Shown here piece by piece: positions 9,263 through 60,522 of a DNA stretch of 64,000 nucleotides (position 1 is its first letter; every line of letters begins with the position of its first letter). The stretch covers positions 24,884,850 through 24,948,849 of the forward strand of contig OU744450.1 of assembly GCA_916610825.1 (NCBI GenBank), written 5' to 3'. The DNA comes from Haliclystus octoradiatus. Its lineage: Eukaryota > Cnidaria > Staurozoa > Stauromedusae > Haliclystidae. Below the pieces are notes generated by a model. It saw only the letters and a program-made list of their open reading frames with translations, had not been told where the DNA came from and made no database searches. The position numbers were made by a program, and so were the translations under genes.

Positions 9263-9649
9263 ACCGATCTAATTTTGACAACGATTATATATATATCCCG
9301 TGGGGGGTAACTCAAGAAACATCACGGATGGGGGATGCCAATTTGAATTCAGAATTTTGCCCCCCCGAAATTTTTTTTCAAAAATTGATACCTCAAATAC
9401 TTTAGCCTTATTCCAGAACGGCCCTTGACTCCACGAAGACGCTCCGATGAGGGCCTATAAAAATTCAGCTAGCAAAGTGATACGTTCAAAATGGCTCCGG
9501 CAGGAAAAATATACCTGGCCAATCACAAAGCAGAACACTCCGTGGTGTGCATGAACTCAATGATAATTGGTTCTTATTCCTCAAGAAAACAAAAGAAGTT
9601 CACTTGCGCCTATGGTTTCAAATTTTGGTTTTGCAAATCAACAACAAAC

Positions 9650-9661
9650 TTTAATACGGCA
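9650..9661. repeat. Target-site duplication, left copy
   Basis: TTTAATACGGCA, repeated identically at 10452-10463. The two copies bracket the hammerhead array and indicate insertion by target-primed reverse transcription or a similar staggered-cut process. Confidence 0.75.
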
Positions 9662-9763
9662 TATTTATTGATTTAATCAAACTTCAATTTTAAAAGAGGG
9701 AATATAAAATTATAATTTGACTTTAATTCCACACAAACAGAATATTCAATTGATAAAGCAGCT

Positions 9764-9808
9764 GGTCTGACACGTGTTTCGTTCCTGCCAAGGAACTCAT
9801 CAGAGACC
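9764..9808 (-). ncRNA. Type I hammerhead ribozyme, intact core
   Basis: Minus strand, 5' to 3': stem I GGUCU, core CUGAUGA, stem II GUUCC/GGAAC with loop UUGGCA, GAAA, a 2-bp stem III (A-U and C-G) with loop ACGU, cleavage triplet GUC, then stem I partner AGACC. All invariant hammerhead bases are present and all three stems pair perfectly. The very short stem III is typical of minimal type I hammerheads from metazoan retroelements. It lies in the last unit (minus-strand sense) of the array. Confidence 0.9.
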
Positions 9809-9949
9809 TTTCTAATGTCGTTGCTCGTCAGGCATTGCGCCTGAAGTCCCGCTAACGAATTGTAGAGATGATGACAACCTCGGTGCATATCGCATGCGCA
9901 GTCCCGGTTGAATAACAACGTGATTGAATAATCAATTGATAAAGCGGCT

Positions 9950-9998
9950 GGTCTGACACGTGTTTCGTTCCTGCCAATTAAGGAAATCATCAGAGACC
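9950..9998 (-). ncRNA. Hammerhead ribozyme, stem II altered
   Basis: Same motif as at 9764-9808, but the G that begins stem II is U (CUGAUGAU), giving a U-C mismatch at the conserved first pair, and loop II has four extra bases (UUAAUUGGCA). Core CUGAUGA, GAAA and GUC are kept. Activity is likely reduced. Confidence 0.8.
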
Positions 9999-10139
9999 TT
10001 TCTAATGTCGTTGCTCGTCAGGCATCGCGCCTGAAGTCCCGCTAATGAATTGTAGAGATGATGACAACCTCGGTGCATATCGCATGCGCAGTCCCGGTTG
10101 AATAACAACGTGATTGAATAATCAATTGATAAAGCGGCT

Positions 10140-10184
10140 GGTCTGACACGTGTTTCGTTCCTGCCAAGGAACTCATTAGAGACC
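10140..10184 (-). ncRNA. Hammerhead ribozyme, core mutated (CUAAUGA)
   Basis: Same fold, but G5 of the invariant core is A (CUAAUGA). G5 is essential in all characterised hammerheads, so this unit should not self-cleave. Stems I, II and III and the GAAA and GUC elements are intact. Confidence 0.8.
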
Positions 10185-10325
10185 TTTCTTATGTCGTAGC
10201 TCGTCATGCATCGCGCCTGAAATCCCGCTAACGAATTGTAGAGATGATGACAACCTCGGTGCATATCGCATGCGCAGTCCCGGTTGAATAACAACGTGAT
10301 TGAATAATCAATTGATAAAGCGGCT

Positions 10326-10370
10326 GGTCTGACACGTGTTACGTTCCTGCCAAGGAACTCATTAGAGACC
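10326..10370 (-). ncRNA. Hammerhead ribozyme, two core mutations
   Basis: Carries CUAAUGA like its neighbour and GUAA in place of GAAA. Stems still pair. Predicted inactive. It is the 5'-most unit on the minus strand; the sequence beyond it diverges after about 60 bases. Confidence 0.78.
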
Positions 10371-10451
10371 TTTTTGATGTCGTAGCTCGTCAGGCATCGC
10401 ACCTGAAGCCCAGCCAAGGAATATTGAACAGTATATACGAGGAACATGTGA

Positions 10452-10463
10452 TTTAATACGGCA
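10452..10463. repeat. Target-site duplication, right copy
   Basis: TTTAATACGGCA, identical to 9650-9661. Confidence 0.75.
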
Positions 10464-11084
10464 AATCATGGGTAGAGCTAGACTGTTTAACGAGGCAAGA
10501 TGTGAGGAGTCTTCGATAATAAGCTTTTGTGGCTGCCGCGGCTAAATTCGAACAGCGTTTGTACATTTTACTTCATTCCAAATTCATATCGAAACTCGAC
10601 AATGTTAACCACGAAAAGCACCAATAAAGAACATTTAATTTACAGGCGAAAGGGTGGATATAAACTTCGATAATATGCTTGTGGCTGTCGCGCAAACTGT
10701 CATACGATCGAATCCCATGTGATAAAATACTGCCCTGTGATTGGCCAGGTAGATTTTTTCCTGCTTGGCAGCACTTTGCTAGCTGAATTTTATCAGGCCC
10801 TCATCGAAGCGTCTGCGTGGAGTTGAGGGTCTTTATGGAATGAGGCTACAAATATTTTATTCAGGCCAAAATTGATACCCCAAATATTTTTTATCGAAGC
10901 ATATTTTAAGATTGATTACAATTTCATGTACTTAAATCCACTTTTTTGCTCGTTGAAAACAATACCTCAAATTTTTTGGAAATTGTGAAATAGATGCCTC
11001 GAAATGTTTCGAAGACCATGAAAAGGTATCCTCAATAATTGGCACCTCCCCTTATACCAACCATTTGAAGTTACCCCCTCCCCA

Positions 11085-12257: not shown

Positions 12258-12840
12258 TTAATTATTTGAATCTTTAATATCTTTATGGTACTTATTAATT
12301 AATAACAGGACAGCTTTGCTTCTTAATGATTTGCTAGGCTCCCAAGTAGCGTCTGTCACGGGATAGTCTTTCCATTTTACCAAATAACTCATACCACGTC
12401 CACGCTTGCGGCAGTCTAGTATGGCTTCAATTGGGTAATATCCATCCGGTAGTTGTTCTTCATGATCATCCGATTTAAAGTCACTGCGATGATCAATCCA
12501 AGGTTCCAGATTACTTACATTGACATCTTGTGGAGCATACGTGTACACGGTTGATTGTCTTACGACACGATAAAAATTATTACCAAGTGATTCTACTATT
12601 TTATACGGTCCATCAAAAGCAGGTGTAATTTGGAAGAGACATTGTCACTACGTTGATGGAAACGTTTTCTAACTAAATCTCCGATGTTAAATATAACATG
12701 ACGAACGCGTTTATCAACTTGTTTTTTCATAGATTTAGCTGCTAGTTGATTATGATGACGTACAACTGCATGCGCTTTTACTGCAAGTTCTGCAAAATGT
12801 GTAGTAGTAAATGGTTCATTTGGATGGACGGTGTCTAATT
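12258..12840 (-). pseudogene. gypsy integrase C-terminus and chromodomain, frameshifted
   Basis: On the minus strand the integrase tail resumes after the LINE insertion (FAELAVKAHAVVRHHNQLA, then a GDLVRKR segment). A one-base shift occurs near 12640, and the frame then continues through FDGPYKIVE to a chromodomain (YYPIEAILDCRKRGRG, YLVKWKDYP, ATWEPSKSL) ending at TAA 12258. Chromodomains at this place mark the chromovirus branch of Ty3/gypsy and direct integration to modified histones. Apart from the shift the chromodomain looks complete, with the aromatic residues Y, W and W. Confidence 0.8.
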
Positions 12841-12847
12841 GACTATG

Positions 12848-13201
12848 TATGTATGTATGTATGTATTTTATTTGTCAACAATGGTGACAGGCAAATACAG
12901 GGAAACTTGTGGTTCCCACTTATGTAAAGCCGTTAAAAAAGTTAAGATATGTTATGGCATATATAAAAGATAAAAGTTTTACAAACAAAAATTGCTACTC
13001 AAATATTTACAAGGCATTTAGAACTATCTAGCTAAGTTAAAAAGGTTACAAGATAAAATTTAAAGGTTACGACATTTGTACTAAAGTACTTACAAGGCAT
13101 TTTGATCTATGCTAGCTAAAGAACGTTTGAATTCTGGCACTGTCTTTGAAGTAACACATTTCTCTGGCAGAGAATTCCACCAAGGTATGATTCGTAAGGT
13201 A
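12848..13201 (-). mobile_element. 5'-truncated LINE nested in the gypsy integrase gene
   Basis: A 354-bp insertion flanked by the 8-bp direct repeat TGACTATG (12840-12847 and 13202-13209). On the minus strand it begins within a LINE ORF2 C-terminus (WWNSLPEKCVTSKTVPEFK, stop at 13090), followed by a 3' UTR and a short (ACAT)n tail. Removing it restores a continuous gypsy frame across the site, showing the insertion came later. The WNSLP signature and ACAT tail match the LINE at 36057-38036. Confidence 0.85.
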
Positions 13202-13740
13202 TGACTATGCGTATTAGCTTCACGCCAAAATAATTCATAAAACGGTGATACTTTAGTATGTGCATTAGGCGTTGTATTATAAGCATAAGCAATGTGTGGT
13301 AAAAATTCATTCCACGAAGTATACTCTGGATTAACATAATGTTTGAGCATATTGATGACGTCAGCATTTCGTCGCTCCGTCCGCCCATTACAACGCGGAT
13401 GGTACGGAGCAGTAAATCTTTGAGTAAACTTTAGTCTAGTAGCAATAGCATTCATTAATTCATTTCGAAATGCACTACCACGATCAGTTAAAATTTCTTT
13501 AGGCATACCATAATGTAAAAATACATGATTAACTAAAAATTTTGCTACAGATGCAGCATCGGTAGACTTAGTAGCTTTTAATATAGTGAATCGACTAAAA
13601 TGTTCAATAAAAACCAAGATATGTCGATGTCCTTTAGCGCTTGGTGGCGATAGTGGACCAATATGATCTAGACTAATCCGATCAAAAGGTTGATCTGCAG
13701 ATAGCGGATTAAGAGTGCCAGATTCTGCAACACAAGGTTT
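13202..13740 (-). pseudogene. gypsy integrase catalytic core
   Basis: Integrase core reading FIEHFSRFTILKATKS, MPKEILTDRGSAFRNE with the second catalytic Asp, a YHPRCNGRTERRNADV segment with the catalytic Glu, and TTPNAHTKVSPFYELF. The first catalytic Asp lies just upstream of 13617 in another frame, because a shift near 13700-13740 separates it from the zinc-binding domain. At 13202 the frame runs into the nested LINE, making a chimeric reading frame that ends at 13090 and is not functional. Confidence 0.85.
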
Positions 13741-16052
13741 TTATTAAACTGACACGTCGGACAAGAGCCAACATAGTCTTTAACGTCATAATAAGCTTTA
13801 GGCCAATAATATTTATCAACAAGACGTGCCCAGGTTCGTTTTTGTCCTAGATGACCAGGTGTAGGTATATCATGCAATTCTGTTAAAATAGCTGCACGTA
13901 AAGTGATAGGTACGTATAATTGTACTCTAGAAGCGCCATTAGAAATACGATATACTAAACCTCCAATTAAACGAAATATCTTAGAACGATATATATCTTG
14001 TTTGGAAGGCTTAGGAATATTAGTTAAATTAATATTATTAGATATAGCTAAATTGTAATTAGTAATTCTGTCTAAGCTTTCCGTTATGGAAAAAATAATC
14101 GGATCATCCGATTGCTCTTTGATTAAATTAATATCAACATTGTTCGGATTGGATAAAGAAGTAATGCCAACATGAATAGTTGATGGATCTATAATATCAG
14201 TTGATATTGAATCAGTAGTAAATAACACTTTGTTTATAGCATCGTTTTCGTAAATCCTTGATAAAGCATCGGCGTCATAATTCTCCTTACCAGGTCGATG
14301 TACAATCTTCATAAAACCAATATATTCTTGTAAAAGTAAACTCCAACGTACAAGTCGTGATATAGTATGTTTAGTGATGAATAGCCAGACCAATGCAGAA
14401 TGATCTGTGATGACTTTGATAAAGCAGCGGTAATAGCCAGTCATACCCAAAAATCTCTGTAAAGCTTTCACTTTTGCAGTTCGTTTAGTGTCAATAATAG
14501 TGTCAGGACAAGGAATATCTAACATCGATTGAATTTTGTCTGGATCAGCAGTAATACCTTTTTCTGATATGTTGAAACCAAGATAAGTTACTTCCTTCCT
14601 TGCAAAATAACATTTTGATAATTTAATTTTCAAGCCAGATTTATGAAATTGTGACAAAACTTGCGTTAAATGACGTAAATTTTCATCAAAAGTATAAGAG
14701 TATACAACAATGTCATCAAGATAAACAGAAACAAAATTACTATCAAGAGGTTTTAAAATTTTAGTCATACCTCTTTGAAAAGTTGCAGGAGCATTAGATA
14801 GACCAAATGGCAAAACATTCCACTCCACGTGCATATCTTCAAATGTAAATGCGGTAAAAGGCTTGCTACATTCATCTACTGCGATTTGCCAGTAACCAGA
14901 AACTAAATCTAATGTCGTTAACCATCTTTTATCAGTTGCACGATGTAACAAATCTTCTACTAATGGTATCTGATAGGCATCAGGTATAGTGACTTTATTT
15001 ATAGGCCGATAATCAATACACATACGTTTTGTACCATCTTTCTTCTTAGCCAATACAACGTTCGCAGAATGTGGACTTACACTTTCTCTCAAAACATTCT
15101 TATCTAATAAATTTTGTATTTCAGAGCGAATAAAGGTTTCCTCGTCCGTAGAATGTCGAGTACGTTTGTTAAATTTGAACGGATTGACATTATCGATTAT
15201 AATCCGATGTTTAATATCGTTACATTTGCCAATCTGGCCATCCACTTCATAAATAGTATTAGAGTGAGTTTGTAATAATTTGGTTAGTAATGATTGTGAT
15301 TCTGTATCAAGACCATCACTTTTAATTTCATTGTGCCAATGACTGTCTGGTGAATCTATTGGGTAATATTGATCATCTACTTTAGGACTGAAATCATTCT
15401 CATCAGCATTAGCAGATATACATAAAGTAGTTGATTGTAAAGAAGATTCTATAATAGTAATGTTATGGCTATTAATAGTATTTTTAGTTAAACTTTCGAT
15501 CCTGTAACAAGGGATCTCAAGAGCATGCGAACCACGCCCAATACTTAAATAATTATGATCAGGGTTAAATGGTCCCCAGTGGCGTCGGACAGATAAAAAA
15601 TCATTACCAACAAGAATGGTACAATGAAGATCTTTGATAACATGTAACAATAAATCAAAACTAATATTACCAATCGTACATAAAATTCGGCAAGTGCCTA
15701 GAGTAGTGATAGTACTAGTGGAGCATCCATCGATCCAAGACAAATTTTTCCGTGAATGTGTATTTATGTCATGATATAAATTATGTTCTTTGATAAATTG
15801 AAGTGAAACTAAAGATAATTGAGATCCTTGATCTAATAATGAAGTGATATGTTGATTGCTGTAAATAATGGGAATTTCCAATTTTGATAAGTCCATTCCA
15901 TCAACAATAACAGCATCGGATTGTAATTCGGCAAGGGTTGGCAACGTTGTATTGCAGTAGCCGACTTGTACGACCTGGCAAGGAATATCGTTCTTTCCAG
16001 GTCTAATAGAGAGATTGGTGGATGGCTGACCTATGCTATTCACCCTTAACAA
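13741..16052 (-). pseudogene. gypsy pol: protease, reverse transcriptase, deleted RNase H, integrase zinc finger
   Basis: A long minus-strand frame. The protease region has LLDQGSQLSL, with Gln where the family has Ser or Thr (D-S/T-G), so the protease is probably dead. RT follows with VVLAKKKDGTKRMCIDYRPI, TLDLVSGYWQI, LPFGLSNAPATFQR and the catalytic VYLDDIVVYS. After FLGMTGYYRCFI the sequence jumps directly to KVITDHSALVWL. The connection segment and N-terminal RNase H, roughly 90-100 residues with catalytic acidic residues, are deleted in frame. The integrase HHCC finger is present (HDIPTPGHLG and CPTCQ). Confidence 0.88.
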
Positions 16053-17810
16053 AAATCCACTTTGGTACCAGTAGTAGCATCCTCAGGACGATGTTGAACT
16101 GTATAGCTGTTGGCTTCGGTGTTGTCTCACTGAATGCTTTCCCTTCAGCCTCTGCAGCAGTACGGCGAATTTCGAACGCAGCTAAACAATTATAATGGCG
16201 ATGACCATACTGATGACAGGTACTACAAAATGGTGGACACCACATATCATTGTCATAAAATCTCCAGCCATCATTGTATTCAATGTAAGGTCGTTAGATC
16301 TTTTTGTCGACTTTTGGACCTTGAAATTTTCTGTTGTTGCGACGTATATCCATATATGTTCGTCCATTACGGAACGAATGGGATGCTGACGATTTAGGCG
16401 TTGATTTTTGAGTTTGGATAGATCCAACGGTAGCAATGTCAGTACAGTGTTCAAGAATTGGGACTTTGACAGGATCAGGGCCAGACTTTAGCGAATAAGC
16501 CTTGGCAACCTTAAGCCAACTTTCTGATTTTTCTGCCGTTTTCATTAAAAGCTCAAGAGTAGTTGGGACGACGTCGGCCTCTCCAAGAACCAAGGGTTTT
16601 ACCTCGTCAGCTAAACCCATGAATATGTAGTGGCATTTCCTCTCTTCAGACATATTAGAGTCAGAGCGACGACAATACTTCAAGACTCATTCCTTATGTT
16701 GTTGGATGGTGTGGTCCTTTTGTTTAATACTTGATAAAATCATAGTGGCTTGATTGGATAGTTTTTTCGGCATGAATTTAGCAACAAATGCCGTGTGGAA
16801 TAATTGCCAATTGGAAGTAACCATGTCCGATAAATTGTCGAACCATATCGTAGCTGGCGTATCATTCTTTAATAAACTATACAAAAGGGCTGGCTTGTCG
16901 ACGTCAGCAACACGAGTACTACGGCAATAATGATCAAATTTTTAAGCCATTCGGCACCGTCTTCTATTGGGTCAATGAATGTCCCGTCCGTATTAACTTC
17001 AATCTCCGTAAGACCGCTGAATGTTGAAGGGGGCTTCAACTTCACCGAAGCATGACCACGCGTGACATCATCTAATTTTTTGGTCTTTGCTAAATAATAC
17101 TGGGTTTGAGTTCGTTGATTCTTGCAAGTAGGACAGGTACAATCAATGGCGTGTATCGAGTGATAGGGACCAACATACAATGCCTCTGAAATGGATCCCG
17201 CAGGACTTGAAGGAGATGACTGCAGTGGACCTTGTGTGGCTTGGGTATGCGTGACACCATATGTGGTAGCCTGTGGGACATTGGTTTGCCCACGGAAGTG
17301 TTCGAATTGCGTGGCAATATGATTTAAGATATAGTTCAATTGACTATTATGATTGGCTTGTTGAGAAGCAATAACGCTTGAAAAACGCTGTTCAAGGCCA
17401 ATAAATTTTTCATTGAACGCTGCTGTTTGAGCGTTCAAATGTTCTGTTAATATTTGATTGAAGCGATCTGAAAACAAATGAAAGGCATCGGCAAATAGAT
17501 GTCTGATGTCTTCCGGAATTCCCTCAAGCAAATTCAAATATGCCCCACTGTCGGCAAAGGAAGGCTTGACGTCACGTTTCCATTCAAAACAACATTTGGT
17601 TGTTGAGCGAATATATGTGCAATTGTTTTCAGTAGCCAATTTACGTGCTAAATCAGTATAAGGATAAGGTAAAATTAGCTCAAAAGTATCTACAATCGGC
17701 GATAATTCTAACATAAATTGACGCACTGCAGCACGGGATTCATCCAAAATTTGTGCAGCAACCATAGCTAATGTATCGGTATCATCGTATTCATTAGGTG
17801 TGGTATCCAT
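16036..17810 (-). pseudogene. gypsy gag, broken
   Basis: The start is an ATG at 17810 after a leader next to the right LTR. The first 300 codons are open, then the frame shifts near 16880. The second frame carries capsid-like sequence (LLKNDTPATIWFDNLSD, KFMPKKLSNQA), with stops near 16687 and 16294. The end has a CCHC zinc knuckle (CSTCHQYGHRHYNC, spacing C-X2-C-X4-H-X4-C), the RNA-packaging motif of gag nucleocapsids. It overlaps the beginning of pol by a few bases. Confidence 0.8.
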
Positions 17811-17924
17811 AGTTGTAAATAAATAATCAGAATATAAACCAAAGTAAGTTGCTTAAAACCACTGAAGTTATATACCAATAAAATAGCAAAGATAAATACC
17901 AAACTATAATAATAACTAAATAAT

Positions 17925-36056: not shown

Positions 36057-37930
36057 ATGGCTTCATTCATTTCATTTGTAAATCAAAAATTGAACTCACA
36101 TCCTAAAATTCCATCACTTCAATGTCCAGATGGATCCCTCTGATGACAATTCAATCAAATCAACTATTCTGAATAATTAATTTGCAAGTGTTTTTACTGT
36201 AGACAATGGTGTTATCCCACCGTTTGAAAAGAAAGTTGAATCCAATACACAATTGAACTTTATTGAGTTTTCTTATAGCAAATTATGAACGCCATCAAAA
36301 ATCTACCTTCAAAAACATCAAGAACGCCAGATTCCTACCCTGCGTTGTTCTTAAAATCAATAGCAAATGAAATTGCCATACCACTCGCAATGTTATTTGA
36401 AATATCTTTGAAATCTGCTACTCTTCCTGCTGTATGGAAAACAGCTATTGTCAACCCCATTTACAAGAAAGGACTTTCCAGATTAGCAGTAAATTATCGA
36501 CCGATATCACTAACTTCAGTTATTTGCAAAGTTATGGAGTCTGTTATGGCGACAGACATTCTAAAGTATCTCAAAGCTCATAATTTAATCACTAAAGAAC
36601 AGTTTGGCTTTATTTCTCGGCGTTCAACATGTACGCAATTATTAGCTGCTTTAAACCAGTGGTATGCTGCTGTAAATGAGCGTATGAAGGTCGATACAGT
36701 TTACATTGATTTTAGCAAGGCTTTTGACACTGTCTGTCATAAATTAATATCAAAATTGAAGGGATATGGCATTAACTATGAACTTTTAAAATGGATAAAA
36801 TCTTTTTTGACTGGTCGCACCCAACAGGTAGCTGTCGGGGATTCAACATCGGGAATCCTCCCTGTAATAAGTGGTGTACCTCAGGGTTCAGTTTTAGGCC
36901 CTCTTCTTTTTATTGTCTATATAAATGACATTGTAAGCTGCTTGGAACTCAACTGTGGCATAAAACTCTTTGCTGATGATGCTAAGATTTCGTTTAAAAT
37001 ATTTACCACTGACAGTACTCCTCTACATTCTACACTTGAAAACCTCTCCTACTGGGCAGAACGCTGGCAACTCAAAATTGCCCAAGAGAAATGCTCTGTA
37101 CTTTCATTTGGGAAATCATCTATTTCGGATGCTGCGTATCAGTTAGATGGAAAGGCATTATCACGTTAATCTTCTGTGAAAGATCTTGGAATCCTACTAA
37201 CTGCAGATCTAAAGTTCACAGAACACTGTTCCATGCTAGCCGCTAAAGCAAAAAACCGTTGTTTCCTAATCAAGAAATGCTTTTCCTCAAATAACCCGGA
37301 GCTGTTAGTGAAAGCGTTCACAACATACGTCAGACCAAAGCTTGAGTCATCTACGCCAGTCTGGAATCCCTATCTCATCAAGGACATAAATATTTTAGAA
37401 AATGTTCAGCGCTCTTTCACAAGATATGTTTGTTTGAAAAATAATTCTTACAAGCCCTATGTAGATCGTCTTGCCTACCTCAACCTTGAGTCTCTAGAAT
37501 TACGCCGCCTTAAGTTTGATCTTCACATGGTCTTTAGAATTTTGAAAAACTTGATTGATTTGGCTCCAGATTAATTTTTCACTATTAAACATTCCAAATA
37601 TTCCTTGCGTGGACATTCACTGACGCTGTACCCAACTAAATCATTTAACTATGACTGTTGCAAACATTACTTTGCAAATAGAATAATCAAGCCATGGAAC
37701 TCTCTTCCTGAAGAAGTTATATCGTCTATTTCTTTACAAACATTCAAATTTAAACTTAATCACGTTAATTTATCACAGTTCTGTAACTTTTCCTTTGCCT
37801 GTTAATTATTTCTGATAACATAGTTTTCTTTATATATATATACTTTTTTTTTTAAAGGTCATATGTAATTGAGGATACATTTAAAAATATCCTCCTTTGT
37901 TTATTTGCCTGTTAGCCATTGTGCTACACA
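36057..37930 (+). pseudogene. 5'-truncated CR1-like LINE ORF2, dead
   Basis: Reverse transcriptase and C-terminal part of a LINE. One frame holds SFVNQKLNSHPKIPS (then a small indel), FASVFTVDNGVIPPF, VWKTAIVNPIYKKG, EQFGFISRRSTCTQLL, VYIDFSKAFDTVCH, GVPQGSVLGPLLFIVYIND, IKLFADDAKISF with the catalytic Asp pair, SVKDLGILLTADLKFTEHC and, near the end, IIKPWNSLPEEVIS. In-frame stops at about 36178, 37167 and 37572 inactivate it. The endonuclease half is missing. A TA-rich 3' UTR follows and ends in (ACAT)n. It inserted into a copy of the GATGTTGTG repeat. Confidence 0.9.
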
Positions 37931-38036
37931 ATACATACATACATACATACATACATACATACATACATACATACATACATACATACATACATACATACAT
38001 ACATACATACATACATACATACATACATACATACAT
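37931..38036 (+). repeat. (ACAT)n tail of the LINE
   Basis: About 26 ACAT units directly after the LINE 3' UTR, probably the expanded 3' tail of the element. Confidence 0.95.
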
Positions 38037-39939: not shown

Positions 39940-40790
39940 ACTTCATGGAATACATGAGATCTGACAAATTCATCGAAAATCATATTTAAATCAATCATTA
40001 TAACAGAAGAACGCCAGTAAACGGGTAAATAATGTTCTTAATTGTATTTTCCTCGAAATCTTAAAGTTATTAGACTTTTTTTTTAATTTTTATTTTGACC
40101 TATTCTTACTGATTCAGGTTTTGACCTCTACGCGGCAAACTTCACGGAATGCGATCTGACAAATTCATCGAAAATCATGTTTAAATCAATCGTTATAACA
40201 GGAGAACGTCAGCAAACAGGTAAATAATGTTCTTAATTGTATCTTCCTCGAAATCTTAAAGTTATTAGATTTTTTTTAAATTTTATTTTGACCCATTCTT
40301 ACTGATTCAGGTTTTGACATCTACGCGGCAAACTTCACGGAATGCGATCTGACAAATTCATCGAAAATCATATTTAAATCAATCATTATAACAGAAGAAC
40401 GTCAGTAAATAGGTAAATAATGTTCTTAATTGTATCTTCCTCAAAATCTTAAAGTTATTAGATTTTTTTTTAATTTTTATTTTGACCTATTCTTACTAAT
40501 TCAGGTTTTGACCTCTACGCGGCAAACTTCATGGAATGCGATCTGACAAATTCATCGAAAATCATGTTTAAATCAATCGTTATAACAGGAGAACGTCAGT
40601 AAACAGGTAAATAATGTTCTTATTTGAATCTTCATCGCAATCTTAAAGTTATTAGATTTTTTTTAAATTTTATTTTGACCCATTTTTACTGATTCAGGTT
40701 TTGACCTCTACGCAGCAAACTTCATGGAATTCGATCAGACAAATTCAACAGAAACTATGTTCAAATCAATAACGTTATAACAGATAATTG
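39940..40790 (+). repeat. About 194-bp tandem repeat, 4-5 units, with exon/intron-like pattern
   Basis: Equivalent points lie at 39958, 40153, 40346, 40540 and 40733 (spacing 193-195). Each unit has an open segment (FDLYAANFTECDLTNSSK in the best copy) bounded by GATTCAG before it and a GTAAATAATG after it. These look like splice acceptor and donor with matching phase 1. Most units have a TAA just before the donor-like site; the unit at about 40126-40219 does not. It is either a satellite or a decayed tandem exon duplication. No hammerhead core was found in it. Confidence 0.75.
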
Positions 40791-42240: not shown

Positions 42241-42302
42241 GTCTGCAGTTGATTGCTAACAGTCGGATATTTCAGGAATTTGATCTTGCGTAATGTCTGG
42301 GT

Positions 42303-43525
42303 TTGTTTTGCGAACAAGCAGCTTTACACACCAGTTTAACACTTCACCACGTCGATGAATGTAAAATTTTTCTTTGCCACCAAAAAGTGGACACCAAAAA
42401 AGGATACTGGCACGTTAAACTTGACGAAGAATCCAGCCGTTTATGCACATTTAACACACCATTCGGGCGATACCGCTTCAAGCGTTTACCGTTTGGAGGG
42501 GTGGTGTTGCAAGATGTTTTTCAACGGAAGCTCGACTCTATATTTGCAAAAATCAAAATTGTTAACCTTATAGCTGATGACATCATCGTTTGTGGGAGTA
42601 CGGAAGAAGAGCATGATAAAGCATTTGAGGAAACGATGGCCGCTTCCCGAAAACATAATGTTAGCCTTAATTCCGAAAAGCTGCAATTCAAATAAGGAAG
42701 AGTAGACTTCTATGGTCATTCTGTATCAAACGAAGGTCTTGCACCACAACCAGCCAAATTGGAAGCTATTCAAAACTTGAGAAGGCCAGAGAATGTGAAA
42801 TAGCTTCAATCTATCCTAGGTATGATTAATTACCTCAATAGATTTTCCACTTCTCTGGCTGACTTGACAGAGCCACTCCGCCAGCTAACTAAAAGCTATG
42901 TTCACTTCAAATGGGAAGAGCACCACCAAACAGCATTGGAAAAGATAAAAACAGAATTGCTGGCCACTGACGTCATATCGTTTTATGATCCTGACCCAAA
43001 AACAAGAACAATTTTACAGTGTGTGATTCTAGTGAAAAAGGTCTTGGAGCCTGGATCCGACAAGTCAACCAACAAGGTCAAGAAAAAATAGTAGCAATGG
43101 CATCCAGGTCATTAACAGAAACAGAAACCCGACATTCAAATATAGAACGTGAATGTTTAGTCGTCACCTATGGCCTAGAAAAGTCTGAGTTCTACCTGTT
43201 AGAAAGAAAAATACAAGTCGAAACTGATCACTCGCCACTAGAACAAATCTTTAAGAAAAATATCAATGATGCTCCATCAAGACTCCAAAGGCTCTTACTA
43301 AAATGTCTCCAATTTGATGTTAACGTCATCTACAGACCTGGGAAATCTATTCCTGTAGCAGATGCTTTATCAAGAGTTTGCATCAAAGAAGACGACAAAG
43401 AGATACATCGAAACATCAATTTCATAACAGACATCAAATGTATCATAGAACCTGGCACAATACGATCTTCTACACTTGAAGATCCGGTATCAAAGTTATT
43501 GAAAGAGACGATCTATTCTGTTTAG
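42303..43525 (+). pseudogene. gypsy pol remnant: RT and RNase H
   Basis: Starts inside RT (KKGYWHVKLDEESSRL, TPFGRYRFKRLPFG, the catalytic LIADDIIVCG). The sequence is typical of K02A2.6-like Ty3/gypsy elements. In-frame stops follow LNSEKLQFK and RRPENVK, then LGMINYLNRFSTSLADL and, after a frameshift near 43015, an RNase H domain (DSSEKGLGAWI, NIERECLVVTYGLEK, ETDHSPLEQIF). It ends RPGKSIPVADALSRV and a stop at 43523. The N-terminal part of RT, the protease and gag are absent. Confidence 0.88.
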
Positions 43526-44850
43526 CCAGCATACCGCCAGCAATGTGACTCACAGCTCTGGAGCTTCTGGAACTTCAGATGCGACCTAGTGTTAGAAGAC
43601 GGTTTGATTTTGAAAGGTGATAGGGTAATCATACCACAGTGCCTCAGACGTCAAGTGCTTGATACAATCCATCTTGGACACCAGGGAGAAACAAAATGCC
43701 TCCTCCTTGCAAGAACAAGCGTGTTCTGGCCTGGAATATCAAACAATATAAAAGCATGGTAAAGGACTGTGAAGAATGCAACAAATACATGCCTGCACAA
43801 AAACGATTGCCAATATTACACCCAGACTTGCCAACTAGACCATGGGAGAAACTCGGAACAGATATCTTCAAATTCAAAGGTGTGAAGCACCTAATCATCG
43901 TTGACTATTTCTCAAGATTTCCTTTGGTACGACGGCTTTCCAGAGCAACAGCAGATGCTATATGCTGCCACTTGACATCTATTTTCACAGAATATGGTTT
44001 GCCAGAAACACTTGTTGCAGACTTCGGATCACAATATATAAGCGAAACATTCAGAGAAAAGTGCAAACTGAGTGGAATGTCTCTTGATCCTAGCTCACCT
44101 TATCACCACCAAGCAAACAGTGTAGCAGAAAGAAATGTCGGCATATGCAAACCATTATGGAAGAAAGCAATAGAAGGCCACACCAGCCTCGAAATTGCCC
44201 TTTGGATGCATAGAATCACGCCACTCGACAGTCACATGCCATCACCATATGAGCTACTTTTTGGACGCAAGCCAAGAAGCTTATTAACTACGTCCAAGAA
44301 GAGCCTGGAGTCAAAGCATCCCAGTAACGAGCAGCATCAAAAAGACAACCTGGATCGTCAGGAGAAACAAGCTTATTTTTACAATAAGAAAACTGAAAAT
44401 GATAAAGAAATCATCAACAACAAATCTCCTGTCTACGTATATAACACATTAAAGCACACCTGGGAACATGGAACAACATTGTCACGTCCAGAGCCAAACA
44501 AGCATCCAAGAACTTATCTTGTTGACATTGATGGTACAATATATCAAAGAACGAGAGAACACCTGAGGTCACGCAATACACACCTTCCATCGCCAATTGA
44601 AAAAGATACCTTCCCAACCATGAATATACAAACAGCTAACATTTCAGTAGAGGAAATCATAGACCCAACATCATCTGACCCGTCAACACCAGCGATAACT
44701 GATGTCAACGTCACACAAGATAAAAACCGTGAACCTCATTTATCAACCCAGCTTCCAAATTCAAAGGAAAAAAGAACATCATATATTCCAAAATGCACCA
44801 TTACCAGAAGTGGCAGAACCACAAACATTCCAGCAAAATTTGCATGTTAA
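43526..44850 (+). pseudogene. gypsy integrase, nearly intact C-terminal pol
   Basis: From the stop at 43523 the frame resumes with an HHCC zinc-binding region (IHLGHQGETKCLL, CEECNKYMP), shifts once near 43720, then runs open to TAA at 44848. The catalytic core has LGTDIFKFKG, LVADFGSQYISE and NSVAERNVGI, carrying the D, D and E residues. The basic Ser/Pro-rich tail ends GRTTNIPAKFAC. A polypurine tract follows six bases after the stop. Confidence 0.88.
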
Positions 44851-49732: not shown

Positions 49733-52093
49733 TCAAAGCGATTGATCAACCGTAGGTACATTCAAAGGTATCATAACTGGCGAATCCTTCGCCACTGGTG
49801 AGGATAAATCCATTTCACTGTTCATTTTAATAGGAGATGACGGTTCTTTTGTAGATCTAGTCGATGCGGTAACAGATTCTTGCAGATCTATGGTGTTCTC
49901 TTCTGCTGTTTTCATTTGTGTTTCGGAGATAATTGACGTGGGGGAATTGAGAACAACTTCGTGAGGTGGAATAATCATCTGTGGAGAAGTTATTTTCCGG
50001 TCTTCTAGATCAGAATTTGGTGATCGGTCTGCCATAACTGGACGACGAATAACTGGTTCAGCATGTTTAAAAAATTTCTGAGTATCAGCTATCATTTTTT
50101 GATGTTGTAGATCTCGAAACCCACCAACATTTGCCATTGCCTCTGTGATCTGCTGTGCCTTGCTGTATATTGGATTTTGAGGGATTGGTGTTGCTTGGAA
50201 AGGGAGAGATTGTCTTGGTCGTGGAGCACCAACAATTTGTGACGATAAATGGACAGCAGCAGTACCAGGACGTTGAATTGGACCAGGCATTGGGCGTTGA
50301 TAACGTGGGTTGATTGGTCCAGGTGGTCCACGTTGTATGTAAGCATTAGCAGACTGCTGTTGGCGAAACATCTGTGGAGGTATCTGGCCACCTAAGTGTT
50401 GTGGCAATTGGGCATTGTGGGGTAACATGTGATGACCTTTGATTGGCATTCCAGCTGCAACATATTGGATATTAGGATCCATTGGTGGGGAACTTAAGCG
50501 AGTTTGGTCATGTATCTGGATTGGTGGACTTGCCCCAGATGATAGCGAACGAGAAGTCATAGGTCTTGGACGAACTGATGCCACAAGCTGATTGTGCATA
50601 ATGTGCTGAGACACAACGGTACCGCCAGGCATCATTGCACCAGTTTGAGGTTTGAATGGTTTGGCATGTACATGGTTGATCAAAGAAGAATTGTCGCTGT
50701 GGGGTATATCTCCAAGATTACCAACCATTTGAGGACGTACCTGATACTGTTGTCCTTGAATATTAATGTAAGAACCTGAATGATGTGGACCTTGCCTCGG
50801 TAACATGATTCCAACTTGATGTTGCACTTGAGATGAGCCCCCTTGCTGTTGTTGTTGTACTTGAGCATTATTTGCAGCCTGTGGATCATATGACATATAA
50901 ACAGCTGAATTTGGTAAGGAAACCGGTGACGCACCAAACATAGTGCCACTTGGGTGAACTTGAGACCTGTAAGATGGGTTGGCAGAACTTTGTGTTTGAT
51001 TCGAGACAACTTGCCATGGTGCTGCTATCATTTGATTTTGTGGTAGTGATATTCCTGGCTGTCCATAAACGTTATTCATCACCAATCTCTGCTGGAGCCC
51101 ATCTTGTGATGGCAAATTAGCAGATGAAGATGCGTGTAAGTGATTTGGTGCACCAGGTATCTGTTGTAGGTTAATACCTTGATGATGATGAAACGCTTCG
51201 TTGTAATCATGTTCATTTTGCTGCATCACAGTAGGCTGGACCACTTGTGTAATCCTATGATCTGTGGGGTTAACAAATTGAGAAGCCATAGCAGCTTTCT
51301 GATCACGGGGACCACCTTGGAAATTCATCATATGATTGCCAGGACGGTGTGTTGCGAGTAGATGTTGAGAATATGAAGCTTCTACTGTAGCTTTACTTTC
51401 ATTGTCTGATTGCTGTTGGCGTGGTTTCACTTTACATACATTTTGAGCATCACTGCCCATACGTTTACTACTAAAAACATCCTGTGAACGTTGTAATGGT
51501 ACATTATCATCTCTTTTGTTATCTTTACGCGTTTCGGGTTTAGTCGGATCTGATCCATCTTGGGTTGAAATAGATTGGGAAGTGGTGGATGAAAAAACAA
51601 CAGATTCGGCAGCTGGTTCACTCCATGAATGAGATGATACTTGCGGACCATTGATAGGGTTGTCCCATACCTCTTTGACCTTGGTGGAAAGTAATTTCAG
51701 ACTTAGTTCTGTAAATTCATGAGCCATTGAGCGAGAACCATGTGTTCCTTTTCGACCAGGGTCACTTGAAGGACCTGATAGCGTAGGTTCTGGTATCTCA
51801 ACAGCGAGGGGAGGGGTACCAGGCAGAGATTTTGTTTCTAAATTCCGTTCATCATCATCTCCAAGTGAGTTTATAACAGAGCGAGCAGTATCTTTGGCAT
51901 TTTGAGCATCTTCATCAGAATATGGCTTAGTGGTAGTAGAAATCTTGGATGGCGATGGTAAAGAGTTAACCAAGGGGTTTGAAGTATCTGATTGTGTTTC
52001 TAGTGGTACATCTGCAAAAGCACTGTCTACCATTTTACTTCGACTAATTTTCACACTTGCTTCATGAACAATTACAGGTTTCCTTTCTTCTTC
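49733..52093 (-). CDS. PRRC2: PRRC2-like protein, terminal coding exon
   Basis: Minus strand exon from acceptor TTTGATTTTTCAG (phase 0) to TAA; 786 codons. It encodes the long disordered C-terminal part: Ser/Pro/Gln-rich, many His-Gln and Met-Pro stretches, a poly-Gln tract (VQQQQQGGSS), and HVHAKPFKPQTGAMMPGG, which resembles the LKPF motif near the end of vertebrate PRRC2 proteins. The previous exon (53694-57307) ends in phase 0 with AAG|GTAAGA. PRRC2 proteins are large RNA-binding, stress-granule-associated scaffolds linked to translation initiation. Identification rests mainly on upstream exons; this one is compositionally consistent. Confidence 0.85.
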   Translation of the reverse strand, partial: EEERKPVIVHEASVKISRSKMVDSAFADVPLETQSDTSNPLVNSLPSPSKISTTTKPYSDEDAQNAKDTARSVINSLGDDDERNLETKSLPGTPPLAVEIPEPTLSGPSSDPGRKGTHGSRSMAHEFTELSLKLLSTKVKEVWDNPINGPQVSSHSWSEPAAESVVFSSTTSQSISTQDGSDPTKPETRKDNKRDDNVPLQRSQDVFSSKRMGSDAQNVCKVKPRQQQSDNESKATVEASYSQHLLATHRPGNHMMNFQGGPRDQKAAMASQFVNPTDHRITQVVQPTVMQQNEHDYNEAFHHHQGINLQQIPGAPNHLHASSSANLPSQDGLQQRLVMNNVYGQPGISLPQNQMIAAPWQVVSNQTQSSANPSYRSQVHPSGTMFGASPVSLPNSAVYMSYDPQAANNAQVQQQQQGGSSQVQHQVGIMLPRQGPHHSGSYINIQGQQYQVRPQMVGNLGDIPHSDNSSLINHVHAKPFKPQTGAMMPGGTVVSQHIMHNQLVASVRPRPMTSRSLSSGASPPIQIHDQTRLSSPPMDPNIQYVAAGMPIKGHHMLPHNAQLPQHLGGQIPPQMFRQQQSANAYIQRGPPGPINPRYQRPMPGPIQRPGTAAVHLSSQIVGAPRPRQSLPFQATPIPQNPIYSKAQQITEAMANVGGFRDLQHQKMIADTQKFFKHAEPVIRRPVMADRSPNSDLEDRKITSPQMIIPPHEVVLNSPTSIISETQMKTAEENTIDLQESVTASTRSTKEPSSPIKMNSEMDLSSPVAKDSPVMIPLNVPTVDQSL

Positions 52094-52141
52094 CTGAAAA
52101 ATCAAAATGAAATAAAATTCATACTATGCTTACTAATGTTT

Positions 52142-52725
52142 CAGCAATCAAATATTGAATGAAAGACCTTGGGGGAAATTCTTTCTTACAATTTCAAACC
52201 GAGCGAACATTGCTCTCATATTGCATTTAAAGCTTACACACGCTCTTTTCAATTATTTAAATCGTTTCACATTGTTGATCTATTCAAATTAACGCTAGCA
52301 TATACAACATACATACAACCTCTCCTTGAGTCCTGTTTACCTGCATGGAACCCATGGTTAGCCAAAGATATCCGTATGCTAGAAAGAGTTCAACAATTTT
52401 GTACAAGAACTATTTGTGAAAGAGCCTCAATATAACGATTATCCTCATTGCCTAAACATTTTTAAATTTGAATCCCTTGAATAGTGTACAGACGATTAAT
52501 TTTTGACTTAAAATATAGAAATAAATAGTATGTTTAGTATCAATATAAATAGGTACAATACTCGAGGTCAGGCTAGAAAAATCAAAGAAACAAATAATCA
52601 AAATTCATACGAATTTAGGAGAAACTTTTTTCCTTCCTTCCGTATTATAAAGCCGCGGAATAGTCTTCCACCAGATGTAGCATTATCATCCTCGTTAATA
52701 ATGTTTAAATGTAAAAATTGTTAGA
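52142..52725 (+). pseudogene. LINE ORF2 3' remnant in PRRC2 intron
   Basis: Plus strand, opposite to the host gene. Broken frames read NFKPSEHCSHIAFKAYTR, YIQPLLESCLPAWNPW, DIRMLERVQQFCTRTIC and, further on, NTRGQARKIK and FRIIKPRNSLPPDVAL. This is the RT thumb and C-terminal region of the CR1-like LINE family seen at 36057-37930. Heavily decayed. Confidence 0.8.
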
Positions 52726-53693
52726 TCAATCAAATTTTTGTAAGTATTTTAGTAAAGGGCATTCTGTAAGTGCTGTTTTGTAAAATGAACAGCCCTAACT
52801 TGCCACGTTCACTAGAAATCACAAAAAAAAGAAAATGTTTCTGCAATTACATGCAACATAGTTACACCTTGATTTTTCAACACAAATGTATCAACGTCAA
52901 AGTTCCCTATTGTCTGCGACATCATTGAAAATATAGAGGATGGCGTTATTTTATCTCAAAATGGTGTCTATTGTTTCAAACCTTCTTAATCTATCAATAC
53001 TAGCTGTAGAGAACAATCAGCGAGATCAAAATAGGATGTCTCCGTAGCGAAATGTCATCTTGTATAACATACTCACTAGCCAGCGTACCAGCCCAAGGTT
53101 TTTTCTGAAACCATAGGGTCTGTGAATTAATGTGTGGTTTTCAGCTCAACAAGTTTCCATAAGTTAGAGATATAATTTATGCATTACGTCGTATTGTCAT
53201 TAAGATCATTGACGTGGGTGACAACTATGACATGCTTGGCAAAGAGTTCTGATTTTATGACAACTGATGTTTTGTGATAGTGTGTGAAATGGAGTGTAAA
53301 TAATTTATCCAAATTTATATAGGTGTTATTTCCGATGAGCTGAAAATCACACATTAGTTCACAGAACCTATGGTTTCAGTAAAAACCTCTGGGATGGATG
53401 CAGGCTACGTACTCACTAGCCTGTAGCTGCTTGCCTGTAATATGATAGACCATGAGAGGTTGACATTCCCTGTGAGGGTTATTTTAGGATACAAACACAT
53501 AATGGTTACATCATAATGCTGAATGCTGCACTCCTTTGATACAATCATCCATCTGTCACATCCTATCTTCTATTAGGCATTAACAAGAACATAAGTACTA
53601 CCCTTTACCAGAAACCCCAATGAGTTCCAAATTAAATGACTGTGGTTGACAGAAATCAAACAATACATAGTCAACTACATACATCTTTCTTAC
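52726..53693. other. Rest of PRRC2 intron
   Basis: The left part follows the LINE remnant. Copies of ACCATAGG..TCTGTGAATTAATGTG and its complement near 53112 and 53355 form an inverted repeat of about 260 bases overall. Otherwise nothing recognised. Confidence 0.45.
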
Positions 53694-56600
53694 CTTCGGA
53701 GGTAATTCTGTAGCATCAGTTTCAGTGTTGGTTGGTTTACTTTTATCATTTTTCCCATGGCCAGAGTCCTTGCGAAATGGTTTGCCTTTATTGTCTTTTT
53801 GAAATCGTGGAGCTTTTTCAGATGGGACTCTGCGTTCTGATACTTTCTTCAGGTCGCGCTTCTGAACTTGACCTTTTGTTGATGTTCTGCTTTCTCGTTT
53901 AGGCCGATCAATTTTCTCTTTTGTGCTGGAACGATTGGTTGTTTTATGTTGTGAGGTTGGTTGAGATTGTGTGCTATCAACAGCATTTTGATCAGTGGAT
54001 TGTTTCATTTTTGATTCTGTATTTCCTTGAACATCAAACTTTGCTGCTTTTGGTTCTAAAGGTTGCTGTGACTGGTTAGATACAGAAGTGATAGCTTGGG
54101 GCTTAGGCTTGCCACTACCAACTGCTTTGGGATCAGGCGCTTGCTGAGAACCAGCAAAACTCAATGGTCTCTGCCATGCATTACCAGGAGGCGGTGTAAG
54201 AGGGTTAGTTGGTAGTTGAGGTTGATCGGTGTTGCTTGGATTACCAGTCGATCTCATCAATGATTTGGCTGGTTCCCATTCACCTACTGCAGCCATGGCA
54301 GCATTACTATTTTGAACTGTTTGGTTTTGACTAGAAGATGTGTTAGGTAATGCCATTGGCTGCATGACAGGTGAAACACGTGATGATTCCTGGTTTGCCT
54401 TGGTAGTAGGTTTTCCAGTCTTGGGAGCGGCATTCTTTGCAATATCCTGTTTAGGTATTTTTGCGGGTTTAGCCATTTCATCTTTGCTTTTCTTCCTAGT
54501 ATCTTTTTTAGTTTTTTCGCGTATTTCTTTTTGACCACCTCGTTTGTATGTTACTTCAACAAAATCATCATTATCGTCGTCCTCTCCATCATCCCTTGAA
54601 AGCGACAGAAACTCATCATTGATAGGATGATCATCTATGCAAACTACGCCTGCAATATTCCTAACATCATACGTACTGAATAAATCAACTTTAATAGGAG
54701 CTGGTTTCAAATTTTTTATAGCTTTTTTATTTTCACCTGCCTCGTCAGATTGATTATTCTCCTTTTTTGACTTGGATGAATTTTCCTCAGTTTTATTCCC
54801 ATTGGATGGCAAACTGGAGGCAGCAGGCGGAGCATCACCAGAAACTGAGGGTTCATTTAAGCGACCTCCAGCCTGCTGCCTATGAGCTAAAAAATGACCA
54901 GGTTTTCCTTTACCACGAGATGGGTGTCTTGCACCTCTATTGCCTTGTGATGATCTATCTTGGTCCGACCTTCGAATTGGAGATTTCACTTCATCATCAC
55001 AAGTCGATTCAGGTGACATGGCGGTTTCACCAGCAGAATGGTAGTCTGCACTATTATCACTTGACTCATCGTTATTGGTTTTAGAAGATGGTACAGTACC
55101 GGTACCAGAATCTCTGTTGTTAAAGTGTTTAGGTCCTCCTTTGGGTGACCTTCCCCTCGCCATGGTTACATTACTATTATAACTGCCATTGACTTTGTTT
55201 GTACCACGTTTTTGATATCTTCCGCGTCCTCTACCAGGAACATCATTTCTTTGAAACCTAGGAGCGGTTGTTTCTTCGTGATGTTTATTTTCATAACGTT
55301 TTGATTGATTTGCTATGCCACGTCCACGTCCTCTCATTGGATGCTTCCCTCGGATTGAATTTGGTTTATTGTGATGACCATCAGTATCAGAACATGATTC
55401 ATAATCAGAATGATCAGTGTCGCTGTATTGGCCCCATTCAGTGTGTTTAGGCTTGACAGTTATAGCGCTAGCAGTGCTCTTCTTTTCAGTTTCATTTGTT
55501 TCGGTGTTGGCATCAGCTGATTCTTCTTTTGATTTCTCATTATCTTCCTCTTTTGTTGAATTGTATTTTCCATTGTTGGTTGGATATGTTCTAGATCTAG
55601 TATCACGCGAGGCACCTCTCCCTCTACCGCGACCTCTGCTAGAGTACAGTGGTCGATCAGGGTGTTTTTCATCTTGATCTCTTCTTCTATCATTTGCACG
55701 TTGCTGTTGTTGACGCTCATTTGTTCTGACTTTCCTTTTATCATCATATTTCGAATGATTTTTGTAAGAGCCATCGTCATATTTCGACTGATATCTCGAA
55801 TTATCTCTCGAGTATTTTTCAGAATCCTTCCTTCTTGTTGATTGTGCATCACGTTTGTTGTGATCAGATTGGTCGTGTTTAACTTTGTTCTGTTCTGTTG
55901 TTCCATCTTTTGATTCTATTGTCTTTGGTTTATTAACTTCATCAGTTTTTTCCGGGATTATATTCTCCTTATTTTCCACTTTTTCAGTGTCAGGATCAGT
56001 GCTCTTCACCTTTTGATCTGTAGATTTATCAACAGCCACAGTAGACGATGTAACTTCTGCTTCTTCTTTCTCAACAGACACACCTGCAGTTTTATCATTT
56101 TTGCTGGAATCATTCTCAACAACTTTATTAGATTTATGAGTCCTTCTACTTTCATCTCTCTTACTTCTATCATCATAGTTTGGTCTTCTACTCCTTGATG
56201 AGTTAAAACGGGAATCTTGCTTATCAACTTGATTGTTGTTGTAGGTGCCATGCCGTGATTGCTGCCGATTGTCATAGTGACGGTCATTATCTATTCGATC
56301 AATATCTCTTCTGTCATAATCTTTTCTGTCATGGTTGCCTCTTCTGTCATGGTTGTCTCTTCGGTCATAGTCTTTTCTGGTATGGTCATTTCTGTCATTG
56401 TCCTTTTGGTTATATTCTCCTCGGTCATTATCTCTTCTATTGTTGTAATTACGATTGGAATGTTCACGTTGTGTATCAGCGTCATACTTTCGTTTACGAT
56501 CTTCAGGATAACGACGGTCATTAAATGGTTTTCCTGTTCTATTATCGAATTTATCTCTTCCTCTGTATGGTTGCTTTTCATATTTATCTGAAACTTGATC

Positions 56601-57307
56601 AATATCTTCTACTCTTATATCATCACTTCGTTTTGTTGTGTCTTTTCCTTTGCTAAGCTCTTCCTTATCTTTTAAGTCCTGTTCTTCTTTCTGAATATCA
56701 AGTAATGATTTCTTTGTTGTGTTTGCACTGACTGCAGCAGTATTTGCCGGCTCGCCGGTCACAACTGTTGCCCATGCAGTTTTTCTTTGTTCAGGGGTTT
56801 GATGCTCCAGTTCTTTGGTAGGAACAGCTGTGACAGTGTTCGATTTTCCTGCTTCATTTTCCCTTGTTCGATTATTACTTGCTGGTGTTTGTGGCTTAGC
56901 AGAGGGAGTACTAGATTTTGTTTTTGGTTTTTCTAGTTTCTTCATACCTTCTTTGAGAGACTTTCCTTTGTTATTGGATTTATTCTTTTCTTGATTATTT
57001 GGTTTCATAGCTGATGACTTTCCCTGCGTGCTGTTCCTCTCTTGTCTAGCTCCACTTTTCTTAGAGTCATTTGCGCTACGGCTTGATCCAGAATCTTTGT
57101 GATCAGTTTTATGTGCCGATTTGAATTTTGAGCCACTGCGGTCATCATTTTGGTGATTCTGACTGCGCCCTTCTTTTGAACTAGGAGGCAGAGGTCTTTC
57201 AGAACTTTCTTGGGAAGCAACACTGGCACCATCATCAGAGCGAGTACTGTCTTTGCGTTTAATGATCTTACGGACAGAATCATCTGCCTGGTTGGTAAGT
57301 GGTTTTT
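53694..57307 (-). CDS. PRRC2: PRRC2-like protein, 3.6-kb internal exon
   Basis: Minus strand exon of 3614 bases, acceptor TTATATTTGTAG at 57308 and donor AAG|GTAAGA at 53693; begins with two bases completing a codon and ends in phase 0. The very charged, disordered protein contains Arg/Asp/Asn repeats (DRRDNHDRRGNHDRKDYDR), RGRGRG and GRGRGRYQKRG boxes typical of RNA-binding RGG motifs, and YSDTDHSDYESCSDTDGHH. The last resembles the SETxSE-type acidic segment between RG boxes in vertebrate PRRC2. FSTYDVRNIAGVVCIDD and DNDDFVEVTYKRGGQ are the only ordered-looking parts and are likely conserved. A single exon of this size is unusual but frame and splice sites are clean. Confidence 0.88.
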
Positions 57308-58934: not shown

Positions 58935-59559
58935 CTAAGGAGTTTGCAGAAGCTTCTTCACTAGTTATAGACTTGTTTGGATGGTCAGCAGAAGGTGATG
59001 GCTTTTGCTGGTTCTTATTACGAAATCTTGGGGGTAATTCGCCAGACGATTTTGAAAAACTTTGCTCTTGAAGACGATATTGCGAAGAAGCTGGTCTTCG
59101 TGATGGGTCATTGTCACTGTCAGAACGATCACGACTACGATGTGTAGCACCAGCGTCTGATCTTTTATTTTTTTTATCTTTTTCTTCAGTCTCAGATTGC
59201 AAAGATTGCTTGTCTTTCTGTCGAGATGTGTTTGCTTCGGAATGTTGGTCATGTGAGATGTCTACTTCGTCTGGTGTTGCTCTACCTTGTGAATCTTTTG
59301 CATCGGGTGATTCATTATTAGAAATAGGATGATTCATTCTCATTTGAGCTTGTTGTTGCACAAAAAACCAATTTGGTGGATATTGATGATATGGATGCGG
59401 TACAGGCATTGGATGACGTGGATCGTATGCGGGTACAAAACCCCCCATACCCCATTTTTGTGGGTATGGCATAGGGACTGCTCCACCTTGATAGCCTGGA
59501 TACATCTCTGCCCAGTTTTCTCTTTGCTGCTGATTGCCATCACCAGATGATTTAGAAGT
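58935..59559 (-). CDS. PRRC2: PRRC2-like protein, internal exon
   Basis: Minus strand exon of 625 bases between acceptor TTTCTGCTATAG and donor TTAG|GTAATT; begins in phase 0 and ends with one base (G), matching the next exon. It contains a Pro/Tyr/Met segment (MYPGYQGGAVPMPYPQKW, FVPAYDPRHPMPVP) like the FDPRWMMIPP-YVDPR region of vertebrate PRRC2, and KSSGELPPRFRNKNQQKP like their SLPPRFQRQQQ motif. That order and spacing are the best evidence for the PRRC2 assignment. Confidence 0.9.
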
Positions 59560-59684
59560 CTATAGCAGAAAACAATAGTAACACGTCAAGTTTATAAACA
59601 TACTAACAGAAAATCTTACAAAGTTTAGTCTGCTGTTATGGTAGCACACATAAATTTATCAAAGGTCAAATGACTTTCTCGGTA

Positions 59685-60510: not shown

Positions 60511-60522
60511 TAAACAGCTTAC

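Follow-up and report, generated by a model that had tools for sequence, protein, structure and literature searches.

A probable retro-inserted and decayed copy of a hammerhead retrozyme family in the genome of Haliclystus octoradiatus

The window, a stretch of 64,000 nucleotides of Haliclystus octoradiatus contig OU744450.1, contains a short tandem array of units of about 186 bp with hammerhead ribozyme motifs on the minus strand. The locus raises the question of whether the array is a genomic trace of a small mobile RNA, a satellite in which the ribozyme is incidental, or the truncated end of a larger autonomous element. Array, insertion site and genomic relatives, taken together, make it very probable that a member of a non-autonomous, non-LTR retrozyme family was retro-inserted here and has since decayed. 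The family is new and belongs to a known kind, the metazoan non-LTR retrozymes.

The array, its hammerhead motifs and its insertion site

Tandem Repeats Finder run on the window gives a repeat of period 186 at 9740-10422, with 3.7 copies, 94% matches and repeat starts spaced 190, 186 and 186. Four hammerhead motifs were located in it (Table 1), which bears out the tandem minus-strand units of about 186 bp described in the initial annotation; the spacing of 186, 190 and 186 that it reported is reproduced at the predicted cut sites. The minus-strand unit motif, with helices drawn by eye, reads GGTCT-CTGATGA-GTTCC-TTGGCA-GGAAC-GAA-AC-ACGT-GT-C/AGACC, where the slash marks the predicted cut; stem I, loop and core were likewise assigned by eye. 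Hammerhead 1 is the sole intact motif of the four. Its stem III, ACACGTGT, is self-complementary, and the helices of the motif are short; the loop of hammerhead 2 is 4 nt longer than that of hammerhead 1. A core and all stems had been attributed to every unit: this holds for unit 1, and fails for unit 2 in stem II and for units 3 and 4 in the core. The Rfam search that had been proposed as a check agrees with this in part, Hammerhead_1 matching unit 1 and leaving units 2-4 unmatched. Its score is 25.2 bits, under the gathering score of 34, with an E value of 0.003 for a search of 2.2 kb; no Rfam hammerhead model reaches its gathering score anywhere in the whole window.

Stem I has 5 bp by eye, without further conserved pairing, a feature that bears on contacts between loops 1 and 2. 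In other animals a weak stem III goes together with dimeric cleavage (PMC7229834, PMC7761336), and by analogy the short self-complementary stem III of the present family would fit dimer cleavage. The GC content of the 186-nt unit is 0.495, below 50% and above 45%. Its predicted 186-nt circle is not unusually folded (circular MFE -43.5; 200 shuffled sequences average -42.9; z -0.15).

Table 1. Coordinates of the array, its motifs and the element that hosts it (positions in the window)
Feature	Position	Strand	Basis or remark
Host inverted-repeat element, left part (terminal repeat from 9403)	9403-9660	.	inverted arms and sister copies
Target-site duplication, copy 1, GAATATT	9740-9746	.	sequence and comparison with array-free sites
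Retrozyme insertion of 186-nt units	9747-10418	-	Tandem Repeats Finder; missing from sister elements; family-type 3' tail
3' tail past the last cut, AGACCAGCTGCTTTATCAATTG, end common to the family	9747-9768	-	other genomic copies
Hammerhead 1	9764-9808	-	core and stems intact; predicted cut between 9769 and 9768
Hammerhead 2	9950-9998	-	G-to-T change breaks the first stem II pair; cut predicted between 9955 and 9954
Hammerhead 3	10140-10184	-	mutated core, CTAATGA for CTGATGA
Hammerhead 4	10326-10370	-	mutated core, CTAATGA for CTGATGA and GTA for GAA
Target-site duplication, copy 2, GAATATT	10419-10425	.	sequence and comparison with array-free sites
Host inverted-repeat element, right part (terminal repeat to 10848)	10440-10848	.	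inverted arms and sister copies

The array interrupts an inverted-repeat element whose arms, 9403-9479 and 10772-10848, are 86% complementary. Either flank, used as a query on the genome (262 Mb, 33 contigs), retrieves many sister copies of this host element; the best 40 candidates of each query were scored. The unit has no match at any of the 14 distinct sister places compared; both flanks adjoin at 12 of them, with a gap of -2 to 23 nt, and the flank joint was not found at two (L011, L013). At the insertion point the array-free sisters read AAAATT or similar, not GAATATT, so that the window duplication is deduced from its two copies in the window. GAATATT stands on either side of 9747-10418, which marks this segment as a clean insertion that duplicated 7 bp of its target; this duplication scores 5.4, below the threshold of 6 used for the family, and the insertion is therefore argued from the array-free sites. 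In ribozyme sense the insertion is 5' truncated at its 10418 end and carries its 3' tail at 9747. Insertion and duplications together cover 9740-10425, which makes the extent first proposed for the array (9662-10451) too wide. As read from this sequence context, the array is a single insertion nested in the inverted-repeat element and no free-standing satellite. It is decayed and, because the ribozyme is intact in one of four units, probably makes no circle.

The host element ends in TAGCC...GGCTA and is bordered by CAAATACTT and CAAATATTT, identical at 8 of 9 positions, perhaps a 9-bp target duplication. Duplications of 9 bp are a trait of Mutator-like elements. The host element is itself nested within another repeat family, whose right part lies at 10849-11083. 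Elsewhere the window holds a second tandem array (39954-40784; period 193, or 387 as dimer; 92-93% matches), LTR-type retroelement-like pieces (12258-17852 minus and 42294-44850 plus) with reverse transcriptase and integrase domains in the pieces searched, and long exons on the minus strand at 49733-60852 that resemble, by eye only, a PRRC2/BAT2-type gene.

A dispersed family of related units

The initial annotation had suggested a genome-wide search for identical units. The core pattern CTGATGAN{5,30}GAAACACGTGTC gives 144 exact matches in the genome and none in the reversed control, which excludes a chance origin of the motif; related monomers, whose absence had been named as counter-evidence, thus exist. 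With stem III relaxed in a second pattern, 142 matches are found and again none in the control, with a TTGGCA-like loop at nearly all of its listed places; among the 144 core matches about 100 places were listed. Stem II covaries in part of the family (GTTCC/GGAAC versus GTCCC/GGGAC), its third pair being T-A in 15 and C-G in 13 of 33 distinct 35-nt variants. The exact 35-nt core has no match in a scan of viral contigs. Units of 186 bp, short helices and many genomic relatives uphold the retrozyme-like size, type I hammerhead and tandem layout attributed to the array. The proposal that it is a genomic copy of a circle-producing element stands in so far as a family of retro-inserted units exists, and probably does not hold for this locus as a producer, given its single intact ribozyme in four.

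Copies were collected with two queries. The array query, for which the best 40 of 595 candidates were scored, yields a set that favours long copies; a 63-nt query was scored for the best 40 of 338 candidates. Copy counts are lower bounds, since only the best 40 candidates were scored in each genome search. A set of 26 copies selected regardless of length was counted by hand from 30 loci after removal of 4 repeats of the same copy; the 63-nt query gave 11 further rows without a locus, three of which are known copies (the window, L050 and L071). Copies range from under one unit to many units, are scattered over many contigs, and span at most two units in 55 of 64 rows. In L062, an array on C7 (C7:7645000-7654999), 2496 bp contain 17 hammerhead matches; units of about 144 nt are mixed with longer ones, and the array bears the target duplication CAATAGCAAATT. 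Two other copies, L043 and L058, lie at the same sequence (AAATAGGTA), in seemingly one repeat family.

The unit length of 186 nt is a multiple of three. One sense frame is open in part of the window array (9932-10465, minus) and in many copies, including L062, and attains 648 codons in L004; a circle of such a unit would have an endless reading frame. Many other copies have one stop per turn (phase 27 is T in 31 units and A in 20, phase 1 being the first base past the predicted cut). Substitutions are even over codon positions (91, 81 and 99). A coding function of the unit was set aside on these two grounds; indels are multiples of three mixed with others, too few to judge. A pol III promoter was also rejected, the unit having no B box at up to 2 mismatches; A-box matches appear only when 1 mismatch is allowed and are uninformative. 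A tRNA search of the window found none.

Insertion junctions, template and helper enzyme

How the family dispersed was read from the ends of its copies. Of 64 rows aligned, 61 were kept for end counts, the rows dropped being those of L071, which is in two pieces, and L036. By alignment the 3' end lies at phases 4-46 in 59 of the 61 rows and at the cut in the other two (L101 and L103). Where a target duplication sets the 3' end it lies at phases 12-23 in 40 of 43 rows, the exceptions being L101 and L103 (at the cut) and L085 (at 29). The circular concentration over the 61 rows is 0.958 for 3' ends versus 0.127 for 5' ends. The family tail reads AGACCAGCC...ATCAA, with two types among the copies, GCTTTATCAA and TCATCAA; a 3' phase of 9 is where the alignment stops at the shorter type, not an insertion end. 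Target duplications score at least 6 in 42 of 64 rows versus 3.2% of 313 shuffled flank pairs; they are 7-15 bp long, mostly 11-13. At this score they are missing in 22 of 64 rows, the window's own among these. The 43 listed duplications have A or T first in 70% and A second in 77%, a bias that may partly be likeness to the tail. In L071 the 5' part is inverted, and twin priming can yield such 5' inversions. A near-fixed 3' end, 5' truncation, target duplication and 5' inversion are marks of target-primed reverse transcription in non-LTR elements. The nearly fixed 3' ends, scattered 5' ends and target duplications of the family point to target-primed reverse transcription from a fixed internal site.

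These junctions bear on whether the copies are satellite arrays spread via unequal exchange or rolling-circle DNA, with an incidental hammerhead. Copies of at least three units, the window included, hold partly shared variants, so not all of their repeats come from one act of reverse transcription. Unequal exchange gives such patterns (L001, L002, L003 and L062), and the 17 hammerhead matches of L062, where units of about 144 nt stand beside longer ones, are also as expected of a satellite. However, a satellite origin does not sit well with the predominance of copies of at most two units, nor with dispersal over many contigs of copies with one near-fixed end and target duplications. We consider it very improbable: the target duplications and near-fixed 3' ends largely refute satellite DNA as mode of dispersal. 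Satellite-type exchange is a likely cause of the later growth of single arrays. Copies with at least three units probably grew by later duplication, and the repeat number of the window array probably grew partly after insertion, via duplication of units.

Within target-primed retro-insertion, the nature of the template is the next point. The RNA extends past the cut in 59 of 61 rows and was therefore not a fully cut linear monomer; it would be a circle read for more than one turn or a multimer in which one site or more had stayed uncut. The 5' ends fall in phases 1-18, from the cut to the start site, in 17 of 61 rows, and in 9 of the 26 copies of the length-independent set (binomial p 5e-4); as L101 and L103 represent one duplicated insertion, counting independent insertions takes one off the figures of the 61-row set, giving 16 of 60 for these phases. 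This excess fits a completed turn as well as a cut linear RNA. One possible reading, to which we give somewhat less than even odds, is that the ends trace a reverse transcriptase that set off at the fixed site just past the cut, went at least once round a circular RNA made by the ribozyme and stopped near its start. A circle explains more simply the copies close to one, two and three turns (L057, L025 and L003). Alternatively, genomic arrays could supply linear multimers, cut or partly cut, as templates, with no circle involved, a possibility to which we give a similar, less than even weight. L050, L056 and L073 begin at the predicted cut within a base, and the insertion in L101 and L103 ends at the cut as cut linear RNA would give; the near-whole-turn copies and the accumulation of 5' ends across the whole stretch from cut to start argue against it. 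In 10 of 13 two-unit copies no copy-specific variant is common to their units, which is expected if the units were alike at insertion and is allowed by both the circular and the linear template. The copy ending exactly at the hammerhead cut is found on C7 at about 8.95 and 9.01 Mb (L101 and L103), probably as one duplicated segment, since the flanks are identical at each place; L102 was dropped as a repeat. Three insertions that start and one that ends at the predicted cut suggest, from junction sequences, self-cleavage in the living animal.

The mechanism we propose would run as follows. Source units would be transcribed on the ribozyme strand and some transcripts cleaved by the hammerhead, a step for which the junctions argue. 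A reverse transcriptase from another genomic locus would take its primer from AT-rich target DNA that has been nicked, begin at a fixed place about 12-23 nt past the cleavage site, copy from under one to several units, and then stop. The window copy would have landed in this way in the inverted-repeat element, where duplication of units probably added further repeats.

Penelope-like elements are the favoured candidate movers of retrozymes (PMC7229834, PMC7761336), and the unit could be the pseudo-LTR of an autonomous Penelope-like element, its copies being 5'-truncated ends of that element. Minimal hammerheads occur in such elements, one of which initiates reverse transcription at an internal position and leaves a tail (PMC11167929, PMC7761336). 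GIY-YIG matches number 44 in the genome, 33 of them above the cut-off and one within an open frame of 792 codons; these matches, the 792-codon frame included, would be Penelope-like elements. However, the 95 hammerhead or copy places with which the GIY-YIG matches were compared (81 on C1-C7 and 14 on C8, C10 and C11; a part of the 144-match family) have none of these matches closer than 13 kb. Upstream of the 792-codon frame stands a different motif, hammerhead-like by eye and without an Rfam match. That motif (L106, C2:28184950-28185650) reads CTGAAGATG...TTGCGAAACG. The first 130 codons of the frame have nothing above a Pfam cut-off. Membership of the unit in a Penelope-like element is, on these sequence comparisons, not supported so far, and we regard it as improbable. 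The distance of GIY-YIG matches from the compared copies leaves room for a helper acting in trans on the retrozyme. A reverse transcriptase fragment, LINE-like by eye, occupies 36279-38036 of the plus strand of the window, its 3' side entering a (TACA)n microsatellite. This fragment was not retained as a candidate: it ends in the (TACA)n stretch, where a retrozyme-type tail was not seen.

The value of the family lies in its junctions, which make retrozyme integration testable from sequence. Integration of metazoan retrozymes and the enzyme that mobilises them are left open in the available parts of PMC7229834 and PMC7761336, and a limited literature search turned up no description of metazoan retrozymes with fixed 3' ends. 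If the circular template is correct, the role of metazoan retrozyme circles as the transposition intermediate can be read from genome sequence alone, and the start site indicates the recognition signal of the helper enzyme. The near-fixed initiation site, the duplications of mostly 11-13 bp, the excess of near-whole turns and the cut junctions are countable predictions, and matching them to the termini of every autonomous element of this genome could name the helper.

Comparison with known systems

Penelope-like elements and Terminons, as described in the available parts of PMC11167929 and PMC7761336, have a minimal hammerhead with a short stem III, an internal start of reverse transcription, a tail of set place and AT-rich targets, as found here. 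The present family differs from them in that no attached reverse transcriptase or GIY-YIG frame was found, and in its start site, 12-23 nt past the cut versus 111-118 nt into the reading frame. SMalpha elements of Schistosoma, SINE-like and with a type I hammerhead (PMC8490949), are like it in these two described traits; the window unit has no pol III B box at up to 2 mismatches. Plant LTR retrozymes, as presented in PMC7229834, are also hammerhead elements thought to move via circular RNA, but their type III hammerheads, LTRs, primer binding site and 4-bp duplications are not seen in our copies.

The metazoan non-LTR retrozymes of Acropora, Mytilus and axolotl (PMC7229834) are the nearest relatives in kind. 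Differences concern the ribozyme and the circle. Stem I, by eye, is short and shows no recognisable partner for a loop-loop contact, as in minimal motifs and unlike metazoan retrozymes in the available part of PMC7229834, where mussel retrozymes are also described as without most of the nucleotides of the loop 1-loop 2 contact. The predicted circle is not unusually self-paired, whereas metazoan retrozyme circles are highly self-paired, a trait presented there as typical and not required. The GC content of the unit is at the upper edge, these retrozymes having less than 50% in the text and less than 45% in a figure legend of PMC7229834. In both, units are small and tandem, 186 nt here versus about 170-400 known, a period inside the range of about 150-450 bp taken for short tandem units. 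The hammerhead is of type I (here with Hammerhead_1 at 25.2 bits, under the gathering score of 34). Neither gives coding evidence, and those retrozymes are without LTRs, primer binding site or polypurine tract, none of which was noticed in our copies on reading. Both have target duplications of more than 4 bp and many dispersed copies. To these shared traits the present family adds mapped insertion ends, which the available part of PMC7229834 does not give.
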